Positions 33,857 through 37,616 of a stretch of DNA of 64,000 nucleotides are shown piece by piece. Within the stretch, counting starts at the first letter, position 1, and every line of letters begins with the position of its first letter. The translations under genes were made by a program, and so were the position numbers. Below the pieces are notes generated by a model that was given only the letters and a program-made list of their open reading frames with translations, was not told the origin of the DNA and made no database searches. Source of the stretch: Chitinophaga pinensis (GTDB taxonomy: Bacteria > Bacteroidota > Bacteroidia > Flavobacteriales_D > Crocinitomicaceae). The stretch spans positions 248,001 to 312,000 of the forward strand of contig CAMDNE010000001.1 in the NCBI GenBank assembly GCA_945902745.1. Direction: 5' to 3'.

Positions 33857-35653
33857 GTGGATAATCAAAATATATTAATTGTAATATCATTTTTATTTTC
33901 TGGATTTTCTTTCGCACAAGAAGATTCAACCTCACAAAAAAAAGAAATTCTTATTCAAGAGGTGAGAATTATTGGCGTGAAATTTAATGAAATAAAAACA
34001 CCTGATTTACAGCAACAAACAGATAAAGTGCTTTCTGAGATTTCAGGAGTAACGCTTATTAAGAGGGGAAATTATGCACAAGAACCAACAATAAGAGGAC
34101 TCAATTCTGGACAGTTAAGCTCAACACTTGATGGTATGCATATTTTTGGTGCTTGCACGGATAGAATGGATCCAATTAGTTCATACGTTGAACCAAATAA
34201 TTTAAATAGTATTCAACTGAACTTAGGTCCAACCGAAGAGCAAAGTACAAATCAAGTTGGCGGTGGATTGAATTTTAAATTACTAAAAGCGATTCCTAAT
34301 GCAGAAAAACTATTCAGCGGGAGAATTGGTGCAGGATTTGAAACGAATGCTTTAGCAATACAATCGCTTGGTTCTTTGCAATATAGTCGAAAAAAATGGG
34401 CTTTGAGTGTAAATGGAATTTTTCGAAAAGCGAATAATTATTATGCAGGTAATCGCGAACAAATTTTATTTTCTCAATACGAAAAATATAATGTTGGAGG
34501 AAGTTTTACTGCTCTTTTAGATAGCTTTAATATTATACATGTTGATTACTTGCAAGATAATGGGAAAGATATTGGATATCCCGCCTTGACGATGGATGTC
34601 TCATTTGCAAATGCAAAAATAATATCAATAGGACACGAATACAAAAAAGATAGTAATAGAATTTATAAAATGGAGAGTAAAGTATATTTAAATTTTATTG
34701 ACCATGCAATGGATGATACAAAGCGTCCTCCAGAAACAGTTCCAATGCATATGGATATGCCAGGCACTTCAAGAACAGTTGGGTTTTATTCGGGAGGAAA
34801 ATTAAGAGTATCACACAAACAATTTATTCAGTTTAAAATAACAGGGTTTCAAAATGATTTACATGCCGAAATGACAATGTATCCACCAATTGGTAAAGAA
34901 ATGTTTATGCTGACAATTCCTGATGCAAGAAGAAGTGTAATCGGTCTAAGTGTTTCGGATAAACTCTATTTTGGTTCAAATATTAATTTATCGATAGGTG
35001 GTAGATTCGAATTTGTAAAATCAGAAATTACAACCTTATTAGGAAGACAAACACTGACAAGTTTTTATAATGGTAATCCTACAAAGACGAATTTACTGTA
35101 TAATATTTTTATCCAATTTGAAGAAAAACTTGGAAAGAAAACAATGTTATATTTTGGAATTGCGAAAGCCTTAAGAAATCCTACTTTACAAGAAATGTAT
35201 GGTTTTTATCTTTATAACAGAGTTGATGGACATGATTATTTGGGTAATCCTATGTTGAAGACAGAATCCTCTTGGAATGGCAATTTGGGAATGAAATATA
35301 AAACTTCTAAATGGAATCTGAATGGTCAAATATATTCATATTTCTTCAAAGATTACATAGCAGGAAGAGTATTAGCAGATTATAGTGTGATGACAATAGG
35401 TGGTAAGGGTGTAAAGGAGTATGTTAATTTACCTTCTGCAATTTTATACGGTTCTGAGTTTACTTTAGAATGGAAGCCAATTCATAAATTACTCATTCAA
35501 AGTATGAATTCTGTTTCTTATGCTAAAGATAATGATGGGGATGCATTACCATTTATTCCTCCCTTTAAAAGTATCAACGCAATAAGTTATGATTTAAAGG
35601 AAACAAATATAAAATTGGAATCAATCATTGGAGCTCAACAAAAACATGTTTAA
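33857..35653 (+). CDS. OprC/NosA-like TonB-dependent copper receptor, truncated by an in-frame stop
   Basis: An outer-membrane TonB-dependent receptor. After a signal peptide (ILIVISFLFSGFSFAQ) comes the plug (about 40-150) with TIRGLNSGQLSSTLDGMHIF and GACTDRMDP. The C100-x3-M104 pair matches the CxxxM copper ligand of OprC. The barrel continues to residue 598, where TAA (35651-35653) stops translation; the same frame then encodes the missing last strands (see 35654-35860). Start is GTG 33857. The receptor probably imports copper with the small Cys protein and YtkA lipoprotein upstream. Without its last strands and terminal phenylalanine it is unlikely to assemble, so this may be a recent pseudogene. 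Confidence 0.88.
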   Translation: MDNQNILIVISFLFSGFSFAQEDSTSQKKEILIQEVRIIGVKFNEIKTPDLQQQTDKVLSEISGVTLIKRGNYAQEPTIRGLNSGQLSSTLDGMHIFGACTDRMDPISSYVEPNNLNSIQLNLGPTEEQSTNQVGGGLNFKLLKAIPNAEKLFSGRIGAGFETNALAIQSLGSLQYSRKKWALSVNGIFRKANNYYAGNREQILFSQYEKYNVGGSFTALLDSFNIIHVDYLQDNGKDIGYPALTMDVSFANAKIISIGHEYKKDSNRIYKMESKVYLNFIDHAMDDTKRPPETVPMHMDMPGTSRTVGFYSGGKLRVSHKQFIQFKITGFQNDLHAEMTMYPPIGKEMFMLTIPDARRSVIGLSVSDKLYFGSNINLSIGGRFEFVKSEITTLLGRQTLTSFYNGNPTKTNLLYNIFIQFEEKLGKKTMLYFGIAKALRNPTLQEMYGFYLYNRVDGHDYLGNPMLKTESSWNGNLGMKYKTSKWNLNGQIYSYFFKDYIAGRVLADYSVMTIGGKGVKEYVNLPSAILYGSEFTLEWKPIHKLLIQSMNSVSYAKDNDGDALPFIPPFKSINAISYDLKETNIKLESIIGAQQKHV

Positions 35654-35860
35654 ACTGAAAAATATGTTGAAAAATTCACTCCATCTTTTTATGTGTTTAA
35701 CATACGTGCGGCACGAAAATTTAAACTTGGAAAAACTAATTTAAATTGCAGTTTAAGTATTGAAAACATTCTAGATGCTGTATATTTTGAACATTTGGAT
35801 GTAATGAAAATTAATAGACAAGGAAGGAATATAATTGCCCACTTAACATATAATTTTTGA
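35654..35860 (+). pseudogene. C-terminal remnant of the TonB receptor, in frame after a TAA
   Basis: Directly after the TAA at 35651-35653, the same reading frame stays open for 68 codons to TGA 35858-35860. It encodes typical last barrel strands: PSFYVFNIRAARKFKL, then LNCSLSIENILDAVYFEHL and NIIAHLTYNF, ending in the terminal phenylalanine that outer-membrane barrels need for BAM-dependent insertion. A single substitution therefore explains the split. No start codon or promoter is suitably placed for it to be its own gene. Confidence 0.85.
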
Positions 35861-35889: not shown

Positions 35890-36540
35890 CTAAAACTCAA
35901 TATCCAAATTAAACGTATTTTTCAGCGTGTGTAAATTCGGATTTTTTCTTGCCATGGCAGCAAATTTATCTTTTCCAGTCAGAAATTTTACTTCGTGTTC
36001 TGGGTTGTCATTGAGCTTAAAACTAATGTCGATTGAATAGTTTTTTAATTCCTTTCTAAAATATCCAACAAGTTCCAAAAGGTGAGGGGTAATCATATCG
36101 ACTTGTGTTTGGTTGTCAACATCCATCACAAAGTGCGTTTCTTCCTTCTGAATTGGTTCACGCTTAATCATTGCGTTGTAGAAGGTTTCTAAACCACGTT
36201 CCTTCATTTCAAAAGCAAATCGACGCCAAAGCATTTTAATTTGATCGAATGTAAATGGATTTCTTGGAAGGTTTTCTTGCAGTTGTTCTGAACCAGATTT
36301 GTCATCTTCTTTTTTCTCCATCATTTTTTTGATAGAAAGAGAGGTAGTATGAAGATCAGCCGATGAAACAACAGTCAATTTTTTTTCTGGTTCAATTGGA
36401 ATTGGTGCTTGTCGAACTGGAGGAGCAATCGGTTTAGGAACAGACGAAATTTTGTCTCTTAAATTTTGATTTGGAAAAGGAATTAAATCAACGGGATCCG
36501 TCAGGCATTTTTTTTTTCTTGCTCTTGTAATAAAGAACAC
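35890..36540 (-). CDS. dnaX: DNA polymerase III subunit tau, C-terminal part in the -1 frame of dnaX
   Basis: An open frame in the -1 frame relative to the dnaX gamma part, joined through the A10 run at 36508-36517. It encodes about 200 residues: a proline-rich linker (PKPIAPPVRQAPIPIEP), a charged segment, and a C-terminal domain (FTFDQIKMLWRRFAFEMKE onward) typical of Bacteroidota DnaX. Full tau would be about 575 residues. Its only upstream start is a GTG inside the gamma coding region, so it is most likely made by slippage. The alternative is a homopolymer length error. Confidence 0.85.
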   Translation of the reverse strand: MFFITRARKKKCLTDPVDLIPFPNQNLRDKISSVPKPIAPPVRQAPIPIEPEKKLTVVSSADLHTTSLSIKKMMEKKEDDKSGSEQLQENLPRNPFTFDQIKMLWRRFAFEMKERGLETFYNAMIKREPIQKEETHFVMDVDNQTQVDMITPHLLELVGYFRKELKNYSIDISFKLNDNPEHEVKFLTGKDKFAAMARKNPNLHTLKNTFNLDIEF

Positions 36541-37616
36541 AGTTGCATCAACGCCATTTCAACCAGTAAACGTTGGTTTTTTGATGACTTATAATCGACA
36601 TCCGATTTACTCAACACGGCCAATGCACGTAAGATTAAATTACCGTCAACTTCTTTCGATTGATCGATGTATCGTTGTTCAATTGCATCACCAACTTCCA
36701 ACAAGACAGCTGTTCGAATATCTTTACAAACCAATAAGTTTCTATAATGATCAGCCAAGCCAACAATGAAATTGTGACCGTCAAAACCTTTTTCGTAAAT
36801 ATCATTTAAAAGCAACAAAGATGATGGGATATCTTCTTTTTGCGCACTATCAACTATTCTAAAGTAATAATCGTAATCAAGAATGTTAAGGTTTTCAATA
36901 ACACTTTTGTATGTTAAATTATTTCCAGTAAACGTAACGATTTGATCAAAAATAGACAATGCGTCACGCAATGCGCCATCTGCTTTTTGGGCAATCAAAT
37001 GCAATGATTCAGGATCAGCAGTTATTGCTTCTTGCGTGGCAATGTACGCTAAATGATCAGCAATATCTTTTACTTTGATTCTGTTGAAATCAAAAATTTG
37101 ACAACGAGAAAGAATCGTAGGAATTATTTTATATTTTTCAGTCGTTGCAAGAATAAAAATCGCATGTTTTGGTGGCTCTTCTAATGTTTTCAAGAAACCA
37201 TTGAAGGCAGCATTTGAAAGCATGTGAACCTCATCAATGATGTAGATTTTATATTCTCCTAATTGTGGAGCGATACGAACTTGGTCAATTAGATTTCTAA
37301 TATCCTCAATTCCATTATTCGAAGCAGCATCTAATTCATAAACATTAAGTGAAGCACCTTCATTAAAAGAAAGGCAAGAATCACATTGGTCGCATGCTTC
37401 AATCGATTCAGATCTGTTGAAGCAATTGATTGTTTTCGCTAGAATTCTAGCTGTCGTTGTTTTACCAACACCTCTTGATCCACAAAACAAAAATGATTGA
37501 GCTAAATGACCTGTTTTAATAGCGTTTTTTAAAGTAGACGTAATAGACTTTTGTCCCACAACCGTATCAAAGGTCTGGGGTCTATATTTTCTAGCTGAAA
37601 CGACAAAATCACTCAT
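36501..37616 (-). CDS. dnaX: DNA polymerase III subunit gamma/tau, N-terminal (gamma) part
   Basis: A 371-residue clamp-loader ATPase. Walker A GSRGVGKTTTA starts near residue 46, zinc ligands are C65, C75, C78 and C81, Walker B is IYIIDEVHML and the sensor FILATTEKYKI. The frame ends a few codons after an A10 run (…EQEKKNA), which would give a gamma-like short form lacking the tau C-terminus, while a -1 shift gives tau. The ATG is 37616; a TTG at 37625 is in frame but lies within the -7 element TAACTTTG (37623-37630, minus strand), which ends 6 nt before the ATG. Confidence 0.93.
   Translation of the reverse strand: MSDFVVSARKYRPQTFDTVVGQKSITSTLKNAIKTGHLAQSFLFCGSRGVGKTTTARILAKTINCFNRSESIEACDQCDSCLSFNEGASLNVYELDAASNNGIEDIRNLIDQVRIAPQLGEYKIYIIDEVHMLSNAAFNGFLKTLEEPPKHAIFILATTEKYKIIPTILSRCQIFDFNRIKVKDIADHLAYIATQEAITADPESLHLIAQKADGALRDALSIFDQIVTFTGNNLTYKSVIENLNILDYDYYFRIVDSAQKEDIPSSLLLLNDIYEKGFDGHNFIVGLADHYRNLLVCKDIRTAVLLEVGDAIEQRYIDQSKEVDGNLILRALAVLSKSDVDYKSSKNQRLLVEMALMQLCSLLQEQEKKNA
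36508..36517 (-). other. dnaX: A10 slippery run in dnaX
   Basis: Ten consecutive A residues on the coding (minus) strand. In the zero frame they are read GAA-AAA-AAA-AAT and a TGA follows after one more codon. Slipping by -1 gives AGA-AAA-AAA-AAA-TGC and an open frame of about 200 codons. Thermus dnaX uses an A9 run and E. coli dnaX an A-AAA-AAG site to make two products. Confidence 0.8.

Follow-up and report, generated by a model that had tools for sequence, protein, structure and literature searches.

Two forms of DnaX, gamma and tau, are known from a few model bacteria, which make them by unrelated means. As described in the accessible passages of the cited papers, the dnaX gene of Thermus thermophilus relies on transcriptional slippage at a run of nine A residues (A9) (PMC3711429, PMC5009743, PMC1088944, PMC6260861), while that of E. 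coli uses a ribosomal frameshift at A_AAA_AAG, with an SD sequence and a 3' stem-loop (PMC3711429, PMC5009743). Nascent stem-loop-mediated transcriptional slippage is described for IS630 of Roseiflexus, at the RNA sequence U5C4 (PMC5009743). The passages of Antonov et al. 2013 (GeneTack, PMC3711429) report 17 two-ORF dnaX genes from 12 genera, nine of them with ten A residues, and propose transcriptional realignment for these genes; a dnaX type with a longer product is given for 17 genomes in a passage of PMC4066793. The Thermus, E. coli and reversed dnaX types are reviewed in Atkins et al. 2016 (PMC5009743, in the passages available). The two-ORF dnaX with ten A residues was thus already described in 2013.

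The dnaX gene analyzed here lies on the minus strand of a stretch of 64,000 nucleotides (the window), with its ATG start at 37616. The zero frame ends in CAA GAG CAA GAA AAA AAA AAT GCC TGA, the stop (36503-36501) being two codons past a run of ten A residues (A10), which appears on the plus strand as T10 at 36508-36517. The product has 371 residues (374 in the program-made ORF list, which puts the start at an upstream TTG). Past the run, the -1 frame has 205 open codons, and its stop ends at 35890. The features of the locus are as follows.

36501 to 37616, minus strand: dnaX zero frame, gamma-like product of 371 aa plus TGA (ATPase, lid, domain III), from Pfam and NCBIfam
36508 to 36517, minus strand: A10 run, putative slippage site, zero-frame phase GAA AAA AAA AAT, from the sequence and conserved in relatives
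36520 to 36539, minus strand: putative nascent-RNA hairpin 5' of the run, from folding, family pair counts, consensus and positional enrichment
36501 to 36503, minus strand: TGA closing the zero frame (gamma stop), from the sequence
36488 to 36490, minus strand: TGA closing the +1 frame, six codons past the run, from the sequence
35890 to 36507, minus strand: tau tail in the -1 frame, 205 codons plus stop, from the ORF, dN/dS and fused relatives

The gamma product matches the Pfam families DNA_pol3_delta2, DNAX_ATPase_lid and DNA_pol3_gamma3, all over the cut-off, and NCBIfam TIGR02397 (dnaX_nterm) with 431.8 bits (cut-off 250). No Pfam family matches the tau tail, which is conserved and in fused relatives forms one frame with gamma. 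The anatomy given in the original prediction, namely ten A residues, a gamma-like zero frame of 371 residues stopping two codons on, and a -1 frame open for about 200 codons, is borne out by the sequence. So is the claim that one more A joins the frames: the sum, 370 + 205 = 575 aa, equals the continuous frame of an A11 relative. Elsewhere in the window, a TonB-dependent-receptor-like ORF (named by appearance; 33857-35860, plus strand) contains an in-frame TAA at 35651-35653, past which the same frame runs for 68 codons more and ends in F.

The A10 run is best read as a programmed slippage site, acting at transcription and making both gamma and tau, with the aid of a hairpin in some genes; we put the probability of this reading at roughly 0.8. 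RNA polymerase would realign on the run, where the RNA:DNA hybrid consists of A:T pairs only, and would produce dnaX mRNAs with 10, 11, 9 or other numbers of A residues. Unslipped messages, together with those carrying 10 + 3n A residues, would terminate at the TGA two codons past the run, with gamma (371 aa) as the product, those with one A extra would give tau (575 aa), and the third frame would lead to the stop six codons on and to another gamma-like protein. A short hairpin of the nascent RNA beside the run may promote the realignment.

The gene fits the type of Antonov et al., with a -1 break at the DNA level at a poly-A run and both ORFs conserved. It shares with that type the gamma zero frame, the tau tail in -1, the ten A residues at the junction and the proposal of transcriptional realignment; it differs in that the available passages of PMC3711429 are silent on a hairpin, on closure of the third frame and on fused relatives that have the same run. 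With Thermus it has in common that a run of A residues marks the boundary of gamma and tau and that both other frames stop nearby, a likeness of sequence to a system in which the two products come from mRNAs of mixed run length. The zero frame encodes tau in Thermus, whereas in the window it encodes gamma; among the 61 named relatives whose run was classified, 46 have a zero-frame tau, 14 have tau in -1 and one has it in +1. For IS630 of Roseiflexus a nascent RNA hairpin is proposed next to the RNA:DNA hybrid of its run, the position at which the predicted dnaX hairpin, being 5' of the A residues, would meet the hybrid in the polymerase; the gene and the run (RNA U5C4) are different, and in dnaX the hairpin is a matter of prediction and comparison, and for some of the genes only. 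The E. coli gene makes the two products proposed here, gamma and tau, but its tau is in the zero frame and its A_AAA_AAG site is accompanied by an SD sequence and a 3' stem-loop, whereas in the surveyed dnaX genes 3' structure is unenriched and SD-like pentamers are at most weakly enriched.

A break in the frame at a homopolymer could also be a sequencing or assembly error, the true run having 11 (or 8) residues and dnaX one frame, and the original prediction held this to be the main alternative. Within the genus, 26 genomes were sampled; a true dnaX match was obtained from 23 (from the other three, weak matches only), and 22 loci reached the junction; 21 of these stop at the same place, and the remaining one (L012, genome G013) has A11 and a single frame of 575 codons. 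For a wider comparison the family was taken to be Crocinitomicaceae, judging from the labels of the nearest named relatives, which are mixed (Flavobacteriales, Crocinitomicaceae, Lishizhenia and two apparently misnamed). Among 101 distinct family junctions, 71 have A10 and 12 have A11-A13, in both cases with tau in -1, two are fused by A11 (L012 of G013 and L215 of G168), and 16 have the split but no run. The comparison of run lengths in relatives, a check proposed in the original prediction, thus shows the break kept at A10-A13 in 83 of 101 junctions, and the stop at that place is TAA in 52 of the 83 genes and TGA in 31. The two A11 relatives with a continuous frame speak for an error; because independent genomes conserve the frame break, 12 of them with a longer run in the same frame, and because both stop codons occur at the place, an error is excluded as the main alternative and its probability is negligible. 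The change from A10 to A11 in L012 and L215, which puts tau in the zero frame, may be a natural flip of the default frame or an assembly error. In another locus (L324, G028) an in-frame TAA at gamma codon 261 is found, with A10 at the usual place, which may likewise be an assembly error or a mutation.

The same junctions bear on phase variation at the DNA level, in which replication slippage in the run would toggle tau between cells. Contingency loci typically contain homopolymer runs, and two family members have A11 with a fused frame; but 83 of the 85 run-bearing family junctions are split in the same frame, longer runs included, and only two are fused. The dnaX gene is, moreover, expected to be essential, and we regard phase variation as very improbable.

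The run was also followed across the phylum in 276 loci, which were best matches or had been picked, mostly one to a few for each family; close relatives are therefore over-represented among the 225 junctions defined below. No run of A≥6 lies near the junction in 31 loci (one of which, L030, stops short of the junction), and the longest run has 6-8 residues in 11; 239 distinct junctions have a run of at least six and 228 a run of at least nine. In these 228, tau is in the -1 frame in 118, in the zero frame in 102 and in +1 in eight. A second set of 225 junctions was defined with a longer duplicate key and a required tau frame of 120 codons; five loci of the 228 (L117, L141, L188, L212, L232) were lost from it, as their retrieved sequence ends too early. 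A run of A≥9 lies near the junction in 66 of 80 named relatives, which were not picked for the run (67 with L098, where A10 is at codon 453): A10 in 52, A9 in eight, A11 in four, A12 and A13 in one each, and a shorter run or none in 14. Other runs of A≥9 in the 225 dnaX genes number just six in about 360 kb (two in 228,448 nt of gamma and four in 131,237 nt of tau tail), so that A≥9 at the junction appears more often than chance would give.

Both non-tau frames stop within six codons in 192 of the 225 junctions (A9 or longer), against about 14% of control positions in the same genes (0.150 for tau controls, 0.135 for gamma controls). In genes above 50% G+C, closure of both frames is found in 23 of 25, against about 0.037 at controls, and in the family it is found in all 85 run-bearing junctions. 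A dereplicated set of 77 genes (below 70% gamma identity, picked among the A≥9 genes and holding one of the listed family loci, L009) has A10 in 55, A9 in 17, A11 in four and A12 in one, with both frames closed within six codons in 58. Judged from these comparisons, the arrangement of A run and frame closure in dnaX is widespread in the sampled Bacteroidota. In L257 (A10) and L274 (A12), tau follows in +1, and both other frames are closed. In the genome of the window itself, eight of the first 30 of 222 runs of A≥9 lie within sense ORFs of at least 100 codons that stay open past the run, a point against the proposed reading; among the same 30 only the dnaX run has a sense ORF of at least 100 codons that closes there while another frame is open beyond.

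Immediately 5' of the run, the window has a predicted hairpin of 7 bp (TGTTCTT - tattac - AAGAGCA), 2 nt from the run. Its stability is modest (-5.6 kcal/mol, fold rank 0.07 in the gene, synonymous-shuffle p 0.28). In the dereplicated set, 24-nt windows were ranked by stability within their gene. Those ending 0, 1 and 2 nt ahead of the run fall in the top 5% in 22, 22 and 19 of 77 genes; the number falls to 13, 10 and 6 at offsets 3, 4 and 5, and is 2-4 from offset 6 on. Windows past the run reach the same level in only 1-6 of 77, thus without enrichment of 3' structure. The 5' fold is more stable than synonymous shuffles (p≤0.05) at 68 of 225 junctions and in 19 of the 77 dereplicated genes. 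Outside the family (n=144), a stable window is found in 49 genes at offset 0, 24 at offset 3, 12 at offset 6 and 4-9 after that, with 16 at offset 36 and 6-11 for downstream windows. A predicted hairpin directly 5' of the run is thus enriched in the dereplicated set, though unremarkable in 55 of the 77. A small 3' hairpin seen by eye past the run (ACGGATCCCGT) was dropped, downstream folding being at background in the set.

Within the family, the 7-bp helix was counted in 85 sequences, with L083 and L224 (odd rows among 87) excluded, and the counts are inflated by relatedness. The helix cells are paired in 78.2% (71.4 ± 0.8 in shuffles) and the covariation score is 0.253 (0.168 ± 0.011), each higher than in any of the 500 shuffles or of the slid registers. 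No excess is seen in pairs changed on both sides (3, with 2.9 in shuffles) or in further pair types (12, with 12.0). The pair at columns 23-32 is U-A in 24 sequences, C-G in 18, G-U in 12, A-U in five, U-G in two and G-C in one, and unpaired in 23. At the two outermost positions, 50 and 46 of the 85 sequences lack a pair, and the predicted consensus keeps five pairs, a 5-bp core. A conserved codon ahead of the run is GAG in 77 of the 85 family genes, GAA in six and another codon in two, against 410 GAG among the 1640 codons for Glu in the gamma parts of these genes; an SD-like role of this codon was considered and dropped in favor of pairing inside the 5' hairpin. The run with its 5' hairpin may be likened to an intrinsic terminator with an A-tract in place of the U-tract.

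The original prediction did not choose between a ribosomal and a transcriptional slip. The slip could instead be made by the ribosome, by -1 frameshifting on A_AAA_AAA or A_AAA_AAN with the roles of E. coli reversed, unshifted reading giving gamma and shifted reading tau. The heptamer is correctly phased in the window, A_AAA_AAG occurs in three run-less family genes (L337, L340, L343), and Chlorobium phaeobacteroides is named as a candidate of the reversed kind in a passage of Atkins et al. 2016 (PMC5009743). Several properties of the surveyed genes argue for transcription. The closure of both other frames favors a transcriptional slip, in which all run lengths arise, whereas a ribosomal -1 shift needs only one frame closed. 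Structure is enriched 5' and not 3' of the run, the run is used in all three phases (4, 50 and 23 of 77), and SD-like pentamers occur upstream in 7 of 77 (3.3 expected). Next to the run on its 3' side comes G in 35, C in 25 and T in 17 of 77, the run is also present where the zero frame is tau, and the at least nine A residues found in most named relatives go beyond the need of a heptamer. A purely ribosomal shift is for these reasons rather unlikely. Whatever its phase, A10 includes A_AAA_AAA heptamers, and in the split genes the ribosome may nevertheless contribute slippage of its own to that of the polymerase.

A further alternative is that the split gene gives gamma only, the tail being either a relic or a protein of its own. 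In comparisons inside the genus, the tau tail has a dN/dS of 0.08-0.26 (computable in 6 of 12 pairs) and that of gamma 0.008-0.052 (7 of 12 pairs, dS not being computable in the rest), values which indicate purifying selection on the tau frame; a relic tail was ruled out on this ground. A separate tail could start at a GTG of the -1 frame at 36540, 23 nt ahead of the run, but downstream of it the frame has no Met before residue 73. In the genus of the window the tail joins gamma at the run, and production of gamma only would leave the conserved run without a reason to persist.

In favor of gamma as the only product is the group of 16 distinct family junctions without a run of A≥9, which stay split without an evident general slippery site. 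They belong to genera g5, g9, g12, g20 and g23 (loci L206, L210, L213, L214, L220, L225, L333-L343 and L345-L349, several of which repeat one genome; g12 and g5 were taken whole, with no genomes beyond the sample). The stop region reads GTATCTTAAG in six of the 16; an ATC codon of the -1 frame is at the stop in 13 of the 16, and in the other three a start overlaps the stop (ATGA in L333, GTGA in L345, TAATG in L349). Consensus folding of 15 of these junctions gave no structure. Some lineages of the family thus appear to do without the A run, and their junctions possibly reflect gene fission with reinitiation or an unrecognized shift site. For the gene of the window, gamma as the only product is highly doubtful, and programmed slippage giving gamma and tau, as originally predicted, is the best-supported reading, with the family's conservation of the frame break at A10-A13 behind it.

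The default frame is nearly constant inside the family of the window. On a quick LG+G4 tree of the 77 dereplicated genes and three family members, the zero-frame product changes 22 times, compared with 24.5 ± 2.0 in shuffles (17.5% of which are as low), and the three-state count is 24. Whether the zero frame gives gamma or tau thus carries little phylogenetic signal at that depth. We consider it fairly probable that the Bacteroidota dnaX carries an old A10 cassette for transcriptional slippage, with a 5' hairpin in part of the lineages, in which slippage would be efficient enough that the default frame hardly matters; the DNA frame would alternate between gamma and tau over long times, selection keeping the run and the two off-frame stops. 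Neither a dnaX hairpin nor an exchange of the default frame was found in the passages of the openly readable literature, those of PMC3971599, PMC3017870, PMC1088944, PMC6260861 and PMC4066793 included, subscription papers being mostly outside this scope.

In annotation, such dnaX genes can seem truncated and tau can be overlooked. If the proposed reading is true, these genes would offer many natural replicates for studying polymerase slippage with and without a hairpin, and a run recurring in one phylum whatever the default frame would mean that a mixture of gamma and tau is generally needed there.
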